64,000 nucleotides of DNA. Source: Aquimarina sp. BL5 (GTDB lineage: Bacteria; Bacteroidota; Bacteroidia; Flavobacteriales; Flavobacteriaceae). Numbering within the stretch: position 1 is the stretch's first letter; each line of letters opens with the position of its first letter. This document shows positions 4-6,573 of the stretch, in pieces. The stretch is from NCBI RefSeq assembly GCF_003443675.1, contig NZ_CP031963.1, forward strand, positions 5,368,501 to 5,432,500. The letters are read 5' to 3'. The notes beneath the pieces were generated by a model that searched no databases, was not told the DNA's origin, and worked only from the letters and a program-made list of their open reading frames with translations. Made by a program: the position numbers and the translations under genes.

Positions 4-918
4 TTAATTTTCTACTACCACGGTCTTACCGTTTTGCAATAGTTGGTATTGCAAACCTAAGGTACTAAAAACTGTTTTAAGGGCAACATCTATATCATTA
101 TTAGGAAAAGTTCCGGTGTAAATTATATCAGTATCTATATTTTTTGTGTCGATAGCGATATTGTACTGATCCTCTAACTCTTTAAAAACATAGTGTAGCG
201 GAACACTTCTAAACGAACTTGTATTAGAAATCCAGGAAGGTTCTAGTGCGTCAAAAGTCCAATTCTCTGAAGCGGTACGGGCAATTTTTCTATATCCTTT
301 TCCTGCTGTAAGAACTGTATTGTCTTGTCCACTTGTAACACTAACTCTTCCTTCATAACAAACTGCTTCAAAAAACGAAGCTTGTGATTGTACATTAAAC
401 TCAGTTCCTAATACAGAAACATCTCCATTAATTGTTGCTACCGTAAAGGTACTTCCCTTTTTTACTTTAAAATAAGCTTCCCCGTCTAAAGATACAGTTC
501 GGTTAGTATCCCAATTGTTTTTGTCAAAACTGGCTTCAGATTTAGCATTAAGTATCATTTCCGAACCATCAGGAAGCGTAACCGTTAATTGTTCTCCAAA
601 AGAAGTTGTAAAGGAATCATTAGAATTGAATAAGAATAATCCAAATATAATTACAATGGAAGCCGCTGCAGCGAAATATGGCCAAAGTTTAATAACAGGT
701 TTTGTGTCTTTCTGAGAATGAGTATTTCTTTTTGATTTTACAGTGTTTAAAGCTTTATCTACATCATACGTTGTTAGATCCAAAGCATCAGCACCAGCCA
801 TAATCTTGTTGTAATGAGTGTACTCCGGATGGGATTGGAACTCCTTAAGTTCCTCTGGAGAAAGTTCTCCATTTATCCATCTGGACAAGAATATATCATC
901 TTTTTTATCGTCAAACAT
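4..918 (-). CDS. FecR-family anti-sigma factor
   Basis: This is a 304-residue inner-membrane anti-sigma factor that would hold the neighbouring ECF sigma factor inactive and relay a periplasmic or outer-membrane signal. The cytoplasmic N-terminal part (about 1-80) is followed by one membrane helix (about 81-97). A FecR domain follows (about 103-195, with LPDGSEMILNAKS and VLGTEFNV), then a C-terminal DUF4974/STN-like domain (about 236-302). The sigma gene lies directly upstream, but the 54-base gap contains its own ECF-type promoter, so fecR is probably transcribed by the sigma factor it inhibits. The stop codon is at the window edge, so genes downstream cannot be seen. FecI/FecR pairs usually sit with a SusC/TonB receptor; none is visible here. 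Confidence 0.93.
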   Translation of the reverse strand: MFDDKKDDIFLSRWINGELSPEELKEFQSHPEYTHYNKIMAGADALDLTTYDVDKALNTVKSKRNTHSQKDTKPVIKLWPYFAAAASIVIIFGLFLFNSNDSFTTSFGEQLTVTLPDGSEMILNAKSEASFDKNNWDTNRTVSLDGEAYFKVKKGSTFTVATINGDVSVLGTEFNVQSQASFFEAVCYEGRVSVTSGQDNTVLTAGKGYRKIARTASENWTFDALEPSWISNTSSFRSVPLHYVFKELEDQYNIAIDTKNIDTDIIYTGTFPNNDIDVALKTVFSTLGLQYQLLQNGKTVVVEN

Positions 919-935
919 AATCTGCTTATATATAA

Positions 936-968
936 TAAAAACGTTTAAGTTTGGTATTACCCTACCTC
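936..968 (-). promoter_or_regulatory. ECF-type promoter of fecR
   Basis: Read on the minus strand, GAGGTAGGGTA (968-958) is followed by a 14-base spacer and CGTTTTT (943-937). This matches the three lipoprotein promoters of this locus at 9 of 11 positions in the -35 element and has the same spacing. It lies just past the sigma stop codon, 18 bases before the fecR start. CGTT at -10 is typical of ECF promoters. That the adjacent sigma factor reads it is inference. Confidence 0.7.
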
Positions 969-972
969 CGTT

Positions 973-1494
973 TTAAATATTTCCAATTTTTTTTCTTAAT
1001 GTTACTAGTGCTTTATGCATTAATTTCTCGATTGCTTTTACTGATACATTAGATAACTCCGCAATTTCTCTATATGTTTTTTTATCAATTCTGCTCAAAA
1101 GAAAAACTTCTCTTTGTCTATCAGGTAAATCAGCTATAGCATTTTTTAGTTTCTCCATATATTCTTTTTCGAGCATAACGAATTCTGGAGATTCATTGGT
1201 AACATCACTTTTTCGTTGCGTAATGTAATTTTGATGTTTAAACTTTACTTGCTGGTGACGTGCGATACTAATTCCAAGATTAGTAGCTATGGTATAGACA
1301 TAGCTTTTTGCTTTATCTAAAGGAACCTTTGCACAATTATTCCATAATTTAATAAAAGAGTCTTGTACAATATCTTCTGCTTGATCAAGATCCCCGAATT
1401 TATAGTATAGGTAACTTCTCAAAAGCTTTGCATGACTTTTGAAAAATTGGTCAAAGGCTTGTTCATCACAAGTAGAGTTTTTACTGTCAGACAT
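973..1494 (-). CDS. ECF RNA polymerase sigma factor, FecI-like
   Basis: This 173-residue sigma-70 family protein has the two-domain ECF layout. Region 2 is at about 17-76, with the acidic DQAEDIVQDSFIKLW segment. Region 4 is at about 119-173, starting LPDRQREVFLLS and holding the helix-turn-helix YREIAELSNVSVKAIE. It lacks regions 1 and 3. It sits immediately upstream of a fecR-type gene and divergent from three repeat lipoproteins that share one promoter pattern, so these are its likely targets. A perfect TAGTTTTG housekeeping box lies about 20 bases before its start, and no ECF-type element does. The sigma gene itself is therefore probably not autoregulated. Confidence 0.95.
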   Translation of the reverse strand: MSDSKNSTCDEQAFDQFFKSHAKLLRSYLYYKFGDLDQAEDIVQDSFIKLWNNCAKVPLDKAKSYVYTIATNLGISIARHQQVKFKHQNYITQRKSDVTNESPEFVMLEKEYMEKLKNAIADLPDRQREVFLLSRIDKKTYREIAELSNVSVKAIEKLMHKALVTLRKKIGNI

Positions 1495-1513
1495 TTGGGG
1501 ATTGATTTGTTGT

Positions 1514-1521
1514 CAAAACTA
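1514..1521 (-). promoter_or_regulatory. Bacteroidota -7 box (TAGTTTTG) of the ECF sigma gene
   Basis: TAGTTTTG on the minus strand matches the Bacteroidota housekeeping -7 consensus TAnnTTTG exactly and ends about 20 bases before the sigma start codon. I see no clear -33 TTTG. This suggests basal expression from the housekeeping sigma factor. Confidence 0.5.
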
Positions 1522-1571
1522 GATTTTTTTCTGATACGAAAAAAAATAAATCAAAAAAAATATGAAAGTAA

Positions 1572-1603
1572 GGGGTGGGGTAGTTGTATTCCTTGGCGTT
1601 TTA
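1572..1603 (+). promoter_or_regulatory. ECF-type promoter of the first repeat lipoprotein
   Basis: GGGGTGGGGTA (1572-1582), a 14-base spacer, then CGTTTTA (1597-1603). The 11-base upstream element is identical to those before the next two lipoprotein genes, and the spacer length is the same. The start codon is 64 bases downstream of the -10 element. A 14-bp palindrome (1606-1619) covers the expected transcription start. Confidence 0.75.
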
Positions 1604-1605
1604 TA

Positions 1606-1619
1606 TGTGTTATAACACA
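1606..1619. promoter_or_regulatory. Perfect 14-bp palindrome at the predicted transcription start
   Basis: TGTGTTATAACACA is a perfect inverted repeat starting three bases after the -10 element of the first lipoprotein promoter. Its position would suit a repressor operator. The second and third lipoprotein promoters lack it, so any extra control would be specific to this gene. It could also be a chance AT-rich palindrome. Confidence 0.35.
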
Positions 1620-1667
1620 CAAAATATCTCAATTGAGTTTTACTTAATCTTTAATTAAAAAATTAAA

Positions 1668-3119
1668 ATGAAAAATCTTAGAATACTTAGCCTACTCATA
1701 TTAGGGCTTATGGTAATATTTACTTCTTGTGAAGAAAACGATGATACCGATCCAACAACAGAATGCCCTGAATTATCTTTTGAAAGAGATGGTGGGAAAT
1801 TAATTGCAAATTTTGAAGAAATAAATAGTTTAGATGTTTACGAGTGGTTTGTAAATGATGAATTGATAGAAACCGAAAGATTAGAGGATCAACGCGATAA
1901 TACCTTAGATATTTCTGAATATAATCCTGGAACTTATACTGTTTGTATCAAAGCAGAAACCCCTGATTGTCCAGCAGGTGTAGAGTTTTGTAAGGAAATA
2001 GTTGTAGGAGAAGATATGGAAGGTTGCCCAGAATTAAAGTTTACAAGAGATGGGGATTATCTAATAGCTGATTTTGAGGGTATTGATACACTAGAATTTT
2101 ATGCTTGGCAAGTTACTGGAGAGACTCTTGATAATGAAGTTATTATAGAGAACGAGGGAACCGATAATCAAGGAGATAACAAGTTTTCTCTTGTTAATTT
2201 AGAAGAAGGAACGTATACTATTTGTTTAATTTCAGAAAGTCCAACTTGTACTAGTACAGAATATTGTGAAGAGATTTCTATCGATCGTAATGGACAGGAT
2301 TCTTGCCCTGATCTAGCTTTTACAAGAGAAGGAGAATATTTGATAGCGGATTTTGAAGGTATAGCGGATTTAGGATTTTATGCTTGGAAGATTACTGGCG
2401 AGGTATTAGGTAATGAAACTTTAATAGAGAATGAAGGGTTAGATTTTCAAGGTGATAATAAATTTCTACTGAGTACACTAGAGGCAGGAAAATATACAGT
2501 TTGTCTTATCTCAGAAAGTCCAACTTGTACCCAAGCAGAACCTTTCTGTAAAGAAATAGAAGTTGGAGATACTAACAATGGTTCTTGTCCAGACTTATCA
2601 TTTATCGAAGAAGGAACATTAATGTTCGCAAATTTTTCTGGAATTGATCAATTGGATGTATATGAATGGTTTGTTAATGGGACGTTAGTAGAAACAGAAA
2701 GTTTACAGAGTCAAGATAGAGATGATAAGTTAGATTTGTCTTCATATAATCCAGGAACTTATACTGTTTGTATCAAAGCAGAGACTAATGAGTGTCCAAA
2801 TGGAACAGAATTCTGTAGAGATATAGTAATTCCAGAACCAGAGCCAGTAGATTGCTCTGTCTTTAAACTAGAGTATTTTGAAACTAATACTGCAGAATTC
2901 GTAAACGCGAATGGTGTAATTCTATTTGGTTTAGATAATAATTCTGTAGTTTGGGAAATCGATGGAAATCAAGTTACGCCAACAACAGCAACTGGACATT
3001 TTTTAATTCTACAAGACCACCTTACACAAACTGGAAGATATGAGATTTGTTACAAAGCAGAATCTTCTGAATGTGGAAGTTTACAAGAGTGTATACAAGT
3101 TGACTTTCAGGGGATATAG
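1668..3119 (+). CDS. Lipoprotein with five four-cysteine PKD-like repeats (I)
   Basis: This 483-residue lipoprotein is of unknown function. A signal peptide ends in the lipobox IFTSC (Cys21), followed by acidic EENDD, which resembles the Bacteroidota surface-export signal. The rest is five repeats beginning at Cys33, 120, 213, 307 and 396 (period 87-94). A typical unit runs CPEL-F, a hydrophobic strand ending in an acidic turn, W-VNGE, then GTYTVCIKAET, CP-G and FCKEI. That gives four regularly placed cysteines, probably two disulfides. The strand pattern resembles PKD/Ig-like sandwiches. Repeats 1 and 4, and 2 and 3, are closest to each other; repeat 5 is divergent. The gene has its own ECF-type promoter and a terminator. 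A surface adhesin or matrix role is inference only. Confidence 0.8.
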   Translation: MKNLRILSLLILGLMVIFTSCEENDDTDPTTECPELSFERDGGKLIANFEEINSLDVYEWFVNDELIETERLEDQRDNTLDISEYNPGTYTVCIKAETPDCPAGVEFCKEIVVGEDMEGCPELKFTRDGDYLIADFEGIDTLEFYAWQVTGETLDNEVIIENEGTDNQGDNKFSLVNLEEGTYTICLISESPTCTSTEYCEEISIDRNGQDSCPDLAFTREGEYLIADFEGIADLGFYAWKITGEVLGNETLIENEGLDFQGDNKFLLSTLEAGKYTVCLISESPTCTQAEPFCKEIEVGDTNNGSCPDLSFIEEGTLMFANFSGIDQLDVYEWFVNGTLVETESLQSQDRDDKLDLSSYNPGTYTVCIKAETNECPNGTEFCRDIVIPEPEPVDCSVFKLEYFETNTAEFVNANGVILFGLDNNSVVWEIDGNQVTPTTATGHFLILQDHLTQTGRYEICYKAESSECGSLQECIQVDFQGI

Positions 3120-3155
3120 AAAAATAATTTTCAGTAAATCATAATTTTAGAATGA

Positions 3156-3189
3156 TGAGGTTGTATCCTATTACAACCTCATTTTTTTT
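3156..3189 (+). terminator. Intrinsic terminator after repeat lipoprotein I
   Basis: A 10-bp perfect stem (3156-3165 with 3172-3181) and a 6-base loop are followed by a run of T. It lies 36 bases after the stop codon, so the next lipoprotein must be transcribed from its own promoter. Confidence 0.85.
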
Positions 3190-3398
3190 ATTAGTGATCG
3201 GTCTAGGTGAATGAAAATTATATAGCAGTGCATTCAAAATTACTAATTGAACTAATCTCGTATTTCAGAGAGATCTCAGGTCCAATACCGCAAAGCTTGC
3301 TTGGGAATTTTAAAAACTATTTTTTATTGAATATCTCGTATACTCATATCGAGGTAATTTATTCCAAAAATTACTTTTTAACATTTTTTTTGAAGGAA

Positions 3399-3430
3399 GG
3401 GGTGGGGTATTCTTTTTTAACCGCGTTTCA
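3399..3430 (+). promoter_or_regulatory. ECF-type promoter of the second repeat lipoprotein
   Basis: GGGGTGGGGTA (3399-3409), 14-base spacer, CGTTTCA (3424-3430). The -35 element is identical to those of the neighbouring lipoprotein genes. The distance from the -10 element to the start codon is 64 bases, the same as for the first lipoprotein gene. Confidence 0.75.
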
Positions 3431-3494
3431 TTATTGTAGAGCCGATAAAAAGGTTCGGACAATTAATTATTGACAACCCCTAAAAATTATAACG

Positions 3495-4928
3495 ATGAAA
3501 AAACTTAGTATTTGGTATGTAATGATCTTTGCATTACTGTTAGGATTTATTTCTTGTGAAGAGATTGAAGAATTAGAAAACTGTCCAGATGTTACTATTA
3601 ATGTAGACAATGTTTCTGGTAGTGCGGTATATAGATTTGCTGCTCAATTTGATGGTATCGAAGATGTAAGACTTACTTGGTCTATTGATGGTGAAGAAAT
3701 AGATACCGGTAATCTAGATGATATAGCAAATCAAATTTTCGAATATCAATTCGAAGAAGGGACATATACTGTTTGTGTAAAAGTAGCAAGCGATTCTTGT
3801 CCTATAGAAGTATGTAAAGAGATTGAAGTAGACATTGATGAAACAGATCCTTGTCCAGACTTATTCTTTGAAGCAAGACAATATGAAAGACCAAATAAAT
3901 ATAAGTTTATTGCAGATTTCCCAGGAATTGAAGAAACTCGTTATGAGTGGTTTATCAATGGAGAAGTAGTAAGTAATGATAATCAGAATGATGATAACTA
4001 TCTGTTTTGGGAATTTAATGAGCCTGGTAGCTATGAAGTATGTATTATGTCTGAAACTCCTGAATGTCCTAATGGAACTTCGTATTGTAAGGTGATTGAA
4101 GTAGAAGAAGGAGATACAGAAGAAGATTGTCCAGAATTGTTTTTTATTGCAGAACAAGATGGTGATAACCCGGCATATTACTTCCAGGTAGAGTTTGAAG
4201 GTGCAGATCAATTCGAGTGGTTAGGATGGTTTATTAATGGAGAGTTTGTAGAGGATTCTAATAACGGAGACAATAACAGATTCTACTATCAATTCGAGCC
4301 AGGAAGATATGAAGTATGTTTAAAAACTGAAACTCCAGAGTGTCCACAAGGAACTTCATATTGCAAAATTATTGAGATTGAAGGTGACCCTAGTGTTTGC
4401 CCAGAATTATTCTTTGAGGCAGAACAAGATGGTAACAATCCTGCATACTATTTTTATCCAAACGCTTTTGATGGCATCAATGATGTAGTATTAGAATGGT
4501 CTATAAATGGAGAATATGTAGGAACTAGTTCTGGACACGATGATCCTTTTTACTATCAATTTAATTCAGGAAGTTATGAAGTGTGTCTTTCTGTTGAAAC
4601 TCCGGAATGTCCAAATGGTACTACATTCTGTAAAGTAATAGAAATTGAAGAAACAACTTCGGATTGCCCAAATCTGAACTTCCAGATTGAACAAGAAGGA
4701 GATACTCCCGGATATAATTTCTGGGCAGAATTCGAGGGAATGAATGATATTTCATATGAATGGACAATCAATGGAGAAGTTGTGAACTCTGAAATTATAG
4801 GTAGTAACGATAGAGATGATTATTTATACTACCAGTTCGGATCAGGTACATACGAAATCTGTATCATTGCAGAAACACCGAATTGTCCTAATGGAACTAC
4901 ATTTTGTAAAACATTAGTGATCGAATAA
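3495..4928 (+). CDS. Lipoprotein with five four-cysteine PKD-like repeats (II)
   Basis: This 477-residue paralogue of the preceding lipoprotein is of unknown function. The signal peptide ends GFISC (Cys21) followed by EEIEELE, an acidic surface-export-like stretch. Five repeats start at Cys30, 120, 212, 302 and 391, each with a CP-(D/E)-L opening, a W-ING(E) turn, (S/T)YEVC, ECPNGT and (F/Y)CK. Several units carry an aromatic YYQF strand not present in the first paralogue. The mature protein is very acidic. It is monocistronic in appearance, with its own ECF-type promoter and terminator. Binding partner and function cannot be read from the sequence. Confidence 0.8.
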   Translation: MKKLSIWYVMIFALLLGFISCEEIEELENCPDVTINVDNVSGSAVYRFAAQFDGIEDVRLTWSIDGEEIDTGNLDDIANQIFEYQFEEGTYTVCVKVASDSCPIEVCKEIEVDIDETDPCPDLFFEARQYERPNKYKFIADFPGIEETRYEWFINGEVVSNDNQNDDNYLFWEFNEPGSYEVCIMSETPECPNGTSYCKVIEVEEGDTEEDCPELFFIAEQDGDNPAYYFQVEFEGADQFEWLGWFINGEFVEDSNNGDNNRFYYQFEPGRYEVCLKTETPECPQGTSYCKIIEIEGDPSVCPELFFEAEQDGNNPAYYFYPNAFDGINDVVLEWSINGEYVGTSSGHDDPFYYQFNSGSYEVCLSVETPECPNGTTFCKVIEIEETTSDCPNLNFQIEQEGDTPGYNFWAEFEGMNDISYEWTINGEVVNSEIIGSNDRDDYLYYQFGSGTYEICIIAETPNCPNGTTFCKTLVIE

Positions 4929-4959
4929 AAAGGTTTAGTTAGGTTAGATTAATTAGGTT

Positions 4960-5002
4960 AATTCCCTGGGAGCATTGCCATTCTTCCAGGGAATTTTGTT
5001 TT
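4960..5002 (+). terminator. Intrinsic terminator after repeat lipoprotein II
   Basis: A 10-bp perfect stem (4960-4969 with 4986-4995) and a 16-base loop are followed by TTTTGTTTTA. It lies 31 bases after the stop codon. Confidence 0.75.
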
Positions 5003-5059
5003 ACCAATAAGATATGTTAGATTGTGATCTAAAATAGATGGATAATTTATTTTATTCTG

Positions 5060-5091
5060 GGGGTGGGGTAGGCTGGTTTTCAGACGTTTTA
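5060..5091 (+). promoter_or_regulatory. ECF-type promoter of the third repeat lipoprotein
   Basis: GGGGTGGGGTA (5060-5070), 14-base spacer, CGTTTTA (5085-5091). The -35 element is identical to the first two lipoprotein promoters. Only 21 bases separate it from the TTG start, so the leader would be very short. Confidence 0.75.
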
Positions 5092-5112: not shown

Positions 5113-6573
5113 TTGAAGAATTTCAATACATATATACAATTATCAATATTACTCTTTTCGATACTCTTTAGCAGTTGTGTCAATGATGACTCGTTCTTTC
5201 CAGAAGAAAATACAGATAATGTGATATCAAGTGCCGCCTTAGTAACGGTTCTTAATAATTTTGGTGATGCTACTAATTTTCCTTCCGAAAATGAACAGTG
5301 TTTTAAATTTGTATATCCAATTACCTTGGGATATAATACGAATTCAACTATCAGGATTGATAGTTACGAGGGGTTGGCAGATGTGATTTCTAGTCAAGGA
5401 GTTAATTTTAATGTTACCGGATTACAATTTCCGGTTCAGATTGTTTTTAGAAATACGGATGTTGAAGTTTCTATAACTAATGAAGCTGCTTTGCTTAACA
5501 TATTGAGAGAATGTGAGTTTGACACTGTAAGAGACGAATTTGATCGCTTTTTTAACAACTGTTTTAAGTTGGATTATCCAGTAGTTTTATTAAATATAGA
5601 TGGAAATGAAACAAATATAACTTCAGATGAAGAATTTGCGATTTTTTATCAAAATCAAGGTCTAACGTATCAACCTGAATTTAAATTTCCGGTAAATGTA
5701 TTAGTAGCTCCAAATTTTGAGAGTACCTCTATAGATACTTATTTTGGTTTTTTCAGAATTACGGAATCTTGTGAGCGTCGTTGTCCTGAATTAAATTTTA
5801 CTTTTGAAATAGAAGATCGCTTTAACCTAGGGTATCAATTTACAGCTGATTTTCCTGATTTAATAGTTTTAGGTACTTATGATTGGTTTGTAGATGATCA
5901 ATTTATTGAGAGTGATGGACCAAATAATCAAGGGGATAATATATTAATACGTGATTTTGAAGCACCTGGTACTTATATTGTTTGTATAAAAGCAGAAACG
6001 GATAGCTGTCCTGAAGGCATAGAATTTTGTGAAACGATCGAGGTAGCAACCGTTTGTCCAGAATTGTTTTTCGAATCTGAACAAGAACCAGGAACATTGA
6101 ACTATTCTTTTGTTGCTAATTTTGAAGGAATAGATGAGTTAACCTATCAATGGCTTATTGATAACGAGCTTATAGAGGAAGATGGAGGTGTTAATGGCGA
6201 TAATATGTTTTTCTCTGAATTTTCACCAGGAGTTCATACTGTTTGTATAAAAACAACAACACCTTCTTGTCCGGATGGAAGGGAGTTTTGTAAAGAAATT
6301 GTCGTGGAACCGATCTGTCCAGATTTATCCTTTATAATAGAGCAAGAAGGAAATACAACAGGTTATAATTTTACAGCAAATTTTGAAAATATCGATACCA
6401 TAATCTATGAATGGGAAATAAATGGAGATGTTATAGAACAGGATGGTGGTCAAGGAGGGGATAATATGTTGTTTTTCCAATTTGACCCAGGAACCTATGA
6501 AATTTGTATTAGAGCAGAAACTCCTACTTGTCCTGAAGGAACGCAATTTTGTGAAGAGTTAATAATTCAATAG
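5113..6573 (+). CDS. Lipoprotein with duplicated N-terminal domain and three four-cysteine repeats (III)
   Basis: This 486-residue lipoprotein is the third of the set. The start is TTG, since no ATG precedes the signal peptide, which ends LFSSC (Cys22) followed by VNDD. Residues about 62-220 hold two copies of a different domain. Each opens with CFK-(F/L)-(V/D)YP and has a later FPV-(Q/N)-(I/V) strand (106-110 and 192-196). Three four-cysteine PKD-like repeats follow, starting at Cys224, 315 and 402, of the same type as in the two upstream genes. Its own ECF-type promoter lies just upstream. I recognise the N-terminal type only as a recurrent lipoprotein domain in Flavobacteriia; no function is known to me. 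Confidence 0.78.
   Translation: MKNFNTYIQLSILLFSILFSSCVNDDSFFPEENTDNVISSAALVTVLNNFGDATNFPSENEQCFKFVYPITLGYNTNSTIRIDSYEGLADVISSQGVNFNVTGLQFPVQIVFRNTDVEVSITNEAALLNILRECEFDTVRDEFDRFFNNCFKLDYPVVLLNIDGNETNITSDEEFAIFYQNQGLTYQPEFKFPVNVLVAPNFESTSIDTYFGFFRITESCERRCPELNFTFEIEDRFNLGYQFTADFPDLIVLGTYDWFVDDQFIESDGPNNQGDNILIRDFEAPGTYIVCIKAETDSCPEGIEFCETIEVATVCPELFFESEQEPGTLNYSFVANFEGIDELTYQWLIDNELIEEDGGVNGDNMFFSEFSPGVHTVCIKTTTPSCPDGREFCKEIVVEPICPDLSFIIEQEGNTTGYNFTANFENIDTIIYEWEINGDVIEQDGGQGGDNMLFFQFDPGTYEICIRAETPTCPEGTQFCEELIIQ

Follow-up and report, generated by a model that had tools for sequence, protein, structure and literature searches.

A G-rich element with a fixed 14-base spacer is a probable promoter of a FecIR-type ECF sigma factor in Aquimarina

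Results

Organisation of the sigma factor locus

The window, the whole 64,000-nucleotide stretch of Aquimarina sp. BL5 DNA analysed here, begins with genes for an anti-sigma factor, a sigma factor and three lipoproteins. The ECF sigma factor (973..1494, minus strand) narrowly passes the curated cut-off of TIGR02985, with 127.3 against 126.4 bits; its closest named relatives are from Aquimarina (99% identity), and its own genome holds 47 matches to the family, five of them above the cut-off. The adjoining FecR-type anti-sigma factor (4..918, minus strand) carries FecR and FecR_C domains. The gene of an 850-aa TonB receptor follows fecR after four bases, beyond the edge of the window. Plug and barrel are found in the receptor, and its N-terminus (aa 28-92) scores as FecR_C in Pfam; this N-terminus is read as an STN-type signalling fold. 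With an ECF sigma gene next to fecR, a TonB receptor carrying an N-terminal signalling domain, a promoter-like site before the fecR-receptor pair and no such site facing the sigma gene, the locus is best read as a FecIR-type surface-signalling unit.

On the plus strand, three lipoprotein genes with similar repeats follow. Repeat lipoproteins 1 (1668..3119) and 2 (3495..4928) each show a lipobox by eye, and lipoprotein 3 (5113..6573) combines an N-terminal alpha/beta part with Ig-like repeats. Against Pfam, the repeats of these proteins give weak summed matches (PKD and similar), with no single stretch passing. The predicted structure of lipoprotein 3 comprises the alpha/beta part and a series of beta-sandwich repeats (pLDDT 86.8, pTM 0.49), which Foldseek matches to generic Ig/FN3 arrays with TM below 0.45 among the matches listed. 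Lipoprotein 3 and many of its relatives seem to use a TTG start, close behind the promoter.

Four copies of a bipartite element

The 30-base core GRGGTRGGGTA-N14-CGTTT occurs exactly four times in the 64-kb window, at 1572-1601(+), 3399-3428(+), 5060-5089(+) and 968-939(-), and nowhere else in it. The 32-base intervals of the earlier note correspond to this core plus two bases, which are YA in the three plus-strand copies. Promoter 1 (1572..1603, plus strand, GGGGTGGGGTA-N14-CGTTTTA) precedes lipoprotein gene 1 and diverges from the sigma gene; promoter 2 (3399..3430, plus strand, GGGGTGGGGTA-N14-CGTTTCA) and promoter 3 (5060..5091, plus strand, GGGGTGGGGTA-N14-CGTTTTA) precede lipoprotein genes 2 and 3, so that each of the three genes has its own copy. 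Promoter 4 (937..968, minus strand, GAGGTAGGGTA-N14-CGTTTT) lies between sigma and fecR, beginning five bases past the sigma gene and ending 18 bases before the fecR start, where it would drive fecR and the receptor gene behind it. The positions of promoters 1 and 4 are the same in related loci.

The earlier description of the element, with four copies, a G-rich -35 part identical in three of them, and a spacer of 14 bases in each, holds on exact matching: GGGGTGGGGTA is identical in the three plus-strand copies, the G-rich -35 is confirmed by the sequence, and the spacer is 14 in 4/4 copies. The letters of the spacer vary among copies, while its length and both boxes are constant. The distance of 64 bases given for the first two copies is recovered when it is counted from the interval ends (1603 and 3430) to the ATG codons of lipoprotein genes 1 and 2 (1668 and 3495). 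At lipoprotein gene 3 the TTG start at 5113 lies 21 bases after the promoter end (5091).

Such a cluster is not expected by chance. With up to three mismatches the window has seven sites, four of them exact, against a mean of 0.51 and a largest value of 2 in 100 dinucleotide shuffles. The whole genome (6,011,237 bases in one contig) has 13 sites with up to two mismatches (five exact, none with one, eight with two) and the reversed control has six; only the exact copies therefore stand out.

The element keeps its position beside related sigma genes

A total of 200 sigma loci were gathered, of which 194 could be scored; the six without a passing sigma ORF are all among the 30 loci from the Aquimarina sp. 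BL5 genome itself. Those whose score against the window sigma exceeded 160 bits were taken as related (174). A site was required to have an exact GTT, a spacer of 13-15 and no more than one mismatch in the -35 part, and was searched for divergent from sigma within 300 bases and behind sigma within 700. Under these criteria 141 of the 174 related loci carry a site in the divergent position, between sigma and fecR, or in both, 139 of them at spacer 14, and 33 carry none. In the same places, the reversed -35 gives 19 loci, the wrong strand none, and any other single spacer from 8 to 25 at most 26. Some of the 174 loci are near-duplicates, L129 and L177 being the same locus; when these are removed at 82% identity, 109 loci are left, and 80 have a site. 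Counted by sites, the spacer is 14 in 237/245 and 15 in the other eight. None of the 174 loci has the element facing sigma within 300 bases, which indicates that the sigma gene is not its own target via this element. None of the 20 remoter ECF loci, all from the same genome as the window, has a site.

The first base of the -10 box differs between sigma groups

The first base of the -10 box is C in the clade of the window sigma, T in most other site-bearing loci and G in a few. Where a locus has two sites, they agree in this base in 99/104 cases (51 CC, 46 TT, 2 GG). Among spacer-14 sites, GTRGGG is kept in 103/103 C sites and 128/129 T sites and is followed by T in 96 of 103 and 129 of 129, counts that lean towards the motif because the search fixed GTT and allowed one -35 mismatch.

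All three dialects are present in the Aquimarina sp. BL5 genome, with CGTT at the window locus and GGTT and TGTT at paralogues. Three sigma paralogues, 54-56% identical, have sites nearby with an unchanged -35 and spacer: GGTT occurs twice at paralogue 3205391, and TGTT is found near paralogues 4417147 and 4839260, the latter site with one -35 mismatch. The stretches near C1:3205391 (L342, L343) contain another sigma-fecR-receptor locus, paralogous to that of the window, in which both promoter positions are occupied and both sites have GGTT. Two further T-dialect sites (L341 and L344, at C1:2480141 and 3698402) have no sigma gene in their 3-kb stretches, and one of them lies 204 bases before the gene of an exported CarboxypepD-like protein. 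These two sites are perhaps targets of a sigma paralogue.

In 84 sequences less than 85% identical, the sigma residues split without exception into S76, R79 and L158 in the C dialect and N76 and R158 in the T and G dialects. In the alignment, R79 falls on an arginine in SigW (5wuq) and in SigE (9m9d), and both of these have an aspartate at the place of S76. The C-dialect sigmas form one branch of the tree with a support of 99, and the link between residues and dialect therefore counts as a single event. Residue covariation was considered as proof of dialect reading and was dropped, the tree showing one change for the C group.

These data bear on whether one of the three related sigmas of the same genome reads the CGTT sites too, or reads them in place of the window sigma. 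Three paralogues with the same -35 and spacer nearby speak for such sharing, and overlapping ECF regulons have been considered for F. psychrophilum in the accessible part of PMC9723704. The paralogue sites, however, begin their -10 box with T or G, and the 99/104 agreement within loci that have two sites also speaks against exchange. We regard shared reading as unlikely, and as the strongest of the alternatives to reading by the adjacent sigma.

Element and sigma clade occur together

Exact sites number 82 across the 66 same-genus genomes and are spread over 42 of them; the reversed control has none. The sigma clade, defined by a best sigma match of E at most 2.0e-60 (the next genome is at 1.9e-56), is present in 56 of the 66; 42 of these 56 have an exact site and 14 do not, and exact sites are absent from the 10 same-genus genomes without the clade (Fisher p 9e-6, genomes treated as independent of kinship). 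The comparison of sites with sigma presence, proposed in the earlier note, places all 82 exact sites within the 56 clade genomes, and 58 of the 82 are within 6 kb of sigma. The absence outside the clade is not perfect: completeness is below 90% in at least five of the 10 genomes, among them the draft G036 (89%), in which near-exact sites precede the candidate RNAs A and B described below.

The loose three-dialect form GGGTAGGGTA-N14-BGTT shows no enrichment in 296 genomes of the order taken irrespective of their sigma content (22 sites in 17 genomes against 20 reversed controls, the reversed string being a possibly unequal control). A stricter two-dialect pattern gives 16 sites in nine of 148 phylum genomes against one control, and of the 13 sites that lie outside the Aquimarina sp. 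BL5 genome, seven have a sigma of the window sigma's family within the same 3-kb stretch. By itself, the loose motif carries little information where the genome lacks the sigma.

Alternatively, the direct GGGTR repeat that makes up the G-rich half might be the operator of an activator that works with polymerase and another sigma, the ECF neighbour being incidental. Activators bind repeats near -35, and GGGTAGGGTA reads as a tandem repeat. Against this, the 14-bp distance to a CGTT, TGTT or GGTT box is kept in 139/141 site-bearing loci, the factor that accompanies the sites is the sigma, and the sigma-A box TAnnTTTG is absent from the stretches checked behind the three plus-strand sites; one such box behind the fecR site overlaps the fecR start codon. 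An operator of this kind is quite improbable, and a sigma-read promoter is the better account of the element.

Distal sites precede candidate small RNAs and a T9SS-cargo gene

Sorting by eye places eight of the genus's 24 distal exact sites before candidate sRNA A, seven before candidate sRNA B, five at a T9SS-cargo locus or its remains and four at other sequence. Candidate sRNA A is about 110 nt long, with a hairpin bearing an AGGGA loop and a covarying terminator, and ends in a hairpin and T run. It occurs in 25/66 genus genomes, one copy each (L098, L100, L108, L120, L285-L309), and in four loci examined it adjoins a DUF4230-like gene, one of which is confirmed by Pfam. Candidate sRNA B, of about 75 nt, has a conserved CCCATAACTTATCTAT stretch and a covarying terminator, ends in the same manner and occurs in 18/66 genus genomes (L102, L107, L310-L327). 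In the Aquimarina sp. BL5 genome, neither A nor B is found by the models.

The RNA models for A and B were built without promoter sequence. An N14 promoter stands before 24/25 A loci, the remaining one having N15 and an insert, and before 18/18 B loci with 0-2 mismatches in the -35. With the loci first found via the promoter removed, the counts are 16/17 for A and 11/11 for B. Base pairs changed on both sides number 9/20 in A and 9/17 in B, values reached by 0/500 shuffles each; the alignments were fitted to the models, so the covariation leans that way, and the changes in B are mostly in the terminator hairpin. Two antisense matches of RNA model R2 were excluded from the pair count. The seven A and B loci searched match no Rfam family, the best match having E 0.17 and 27 bits against a gathering score of 55.8.

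The fifth exact copy in the Aquimarina sp. BL5 genome (L009:5201-5230, C1:4441200) has no long reading frame behind it; it reads as fronting the tail of a T9SS-cargo gene whose long frame is retained in six relatives. A third RNA family, modelled on this site and two relatives (R3), was rejected because its hairpin falls within coding sequence, at the 3' end. R3 matches occur in 12/66 genomes. In six of these loci an open frame of 432-451 codons, counted stop to stop, lies between the promoter and the hairpin; in five, including that of Aquimarina sp. BL5, the promoter comes directly before the apparent last part of the T9SS-cargo gene; the remaining locus, L339, contains a similar stretch.

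That the copies are functionless leftovers of a recent gene duplication, as the similar repeats of the three lipoproteins might suggest, is hardly credible: the element also stands before fecR, the sRNAs and the T9SS-cargo gene, none of which is related to the lipoproteins, and spacer letters change while spacer length and both boxes are retained.

Discussion

On sequence evidence, the element (-35 GGTRGGGTA, fixed 14-bp spacer, -10 CGTT) is very probably the promoter read by the neighbouring ECF sigma factor within a FecIR-type unit. The earlier note had named this sigma as the natural reader, and the choice gains support from the co-occurrence of element and sigma clade, from the paired sites beside its relatives and from the 0/20 count among remoter ECF loci of the same genome. 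At that stage neither the receptor with its STN-type domain nor the fifth copy, the two other dialects (T and G) or the candidate sRNAs of relatives could be seen.

We infer that the sigma binds the element and sets the transcription start behind it, responding to a signal under feedback. By analogy with FecIRA and HasISR, a substrate at the receptor would relieve FecR. The freed sigma would then transcribe fecR and the receptor gene, giving a feedback, together with the three surface lipoprotein genes, its own gene being left out. Raised anti-sigma would permit a quick shut-off, as argued for hasS in the available portion of PMC9249621.

In a wider and tentative reading, to which we give somewhat less than an even chance, a FecR-linked subfamily of Bacteroidota sigmas would use one G-rich -35 and a 14-bp spacer and would keep its regulons apart by the first -10 base, the C dialect driving sRNAs in many Aquimarina relatives. 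In E. coli, the small RNAs of sigma-E trim envelope mRNAs. That the sRNAs of the Aquimarina relatives may do the same is speculation by analogy.

Bacteroidota have many ECF sigma factors and few with a known promoter, and a promoter that is legible in sequence makes surface-signalling regulons listable by computer. The presence of three -10 dialects in one genome provides a natural test of base choice by ECF region 2, and the candidate sRNAs would give such a regulon an RNA arm. The same element stands beside many related sigma factors, which makes the promoter idea directly testable.

In print, the letter strings of the motif lead to a qPCR primer in the bacterial paper checked among the matches listed. 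A G-rich -35 for a Bacteroidota ECF was not found in the literature searched, most subscription papers lying outside it. As of 2020, according to the accessible text of PMC7366714, no promoter was known for any B. thetaiotaomicron ECF, and the EcfO motif of B. fragilis is cited there as known.

The unit resembles E. coli FecI-FecR-FecA in its ECF sigma, FecR and TonB receptor with signalling domain, and in a sigma that is not autoregulated (PMC9249621, in the part available). FecI, unlike what is proposed for the sigma here, does not drive fecR, its promoter differs, and the genes behind the other sites are an iron-citrate transport operon in E. coli and surface lipoproteins here. In HasI-HasS-HasR of Serratia marcescens, the sigma drives the genes of its anti-sigma and its receptor and leaves its own gene out (same portion of PMC9249621); this is a haem system of another phylum, and its proposed promoter sequence differs. 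The SM6 promoters of Flavobacterium psychrophilum, likewise a flavobacterium, have a CGT box of ECF type at -10; they stand before T9SS and Band-7 genes, with no G-rich -35 mentioned in the accessible part of PMC9723704. The PM2 promoters of B. thetaiotaomicron have TGTT near -10, as in the T dialect; in the available parts of PMC12596196 and PMC7366714 they are linked to the ECFs SigW-1 and SigH-1 and also stand before intergenic sRNAs including GibS. These ECFs are assigned to other groups (ECF251, ECF114). In conclusion, the components of the unit are of known kind, and the closest promoter found in print, within the portions available, is PM2, compared on the -10 box alone.
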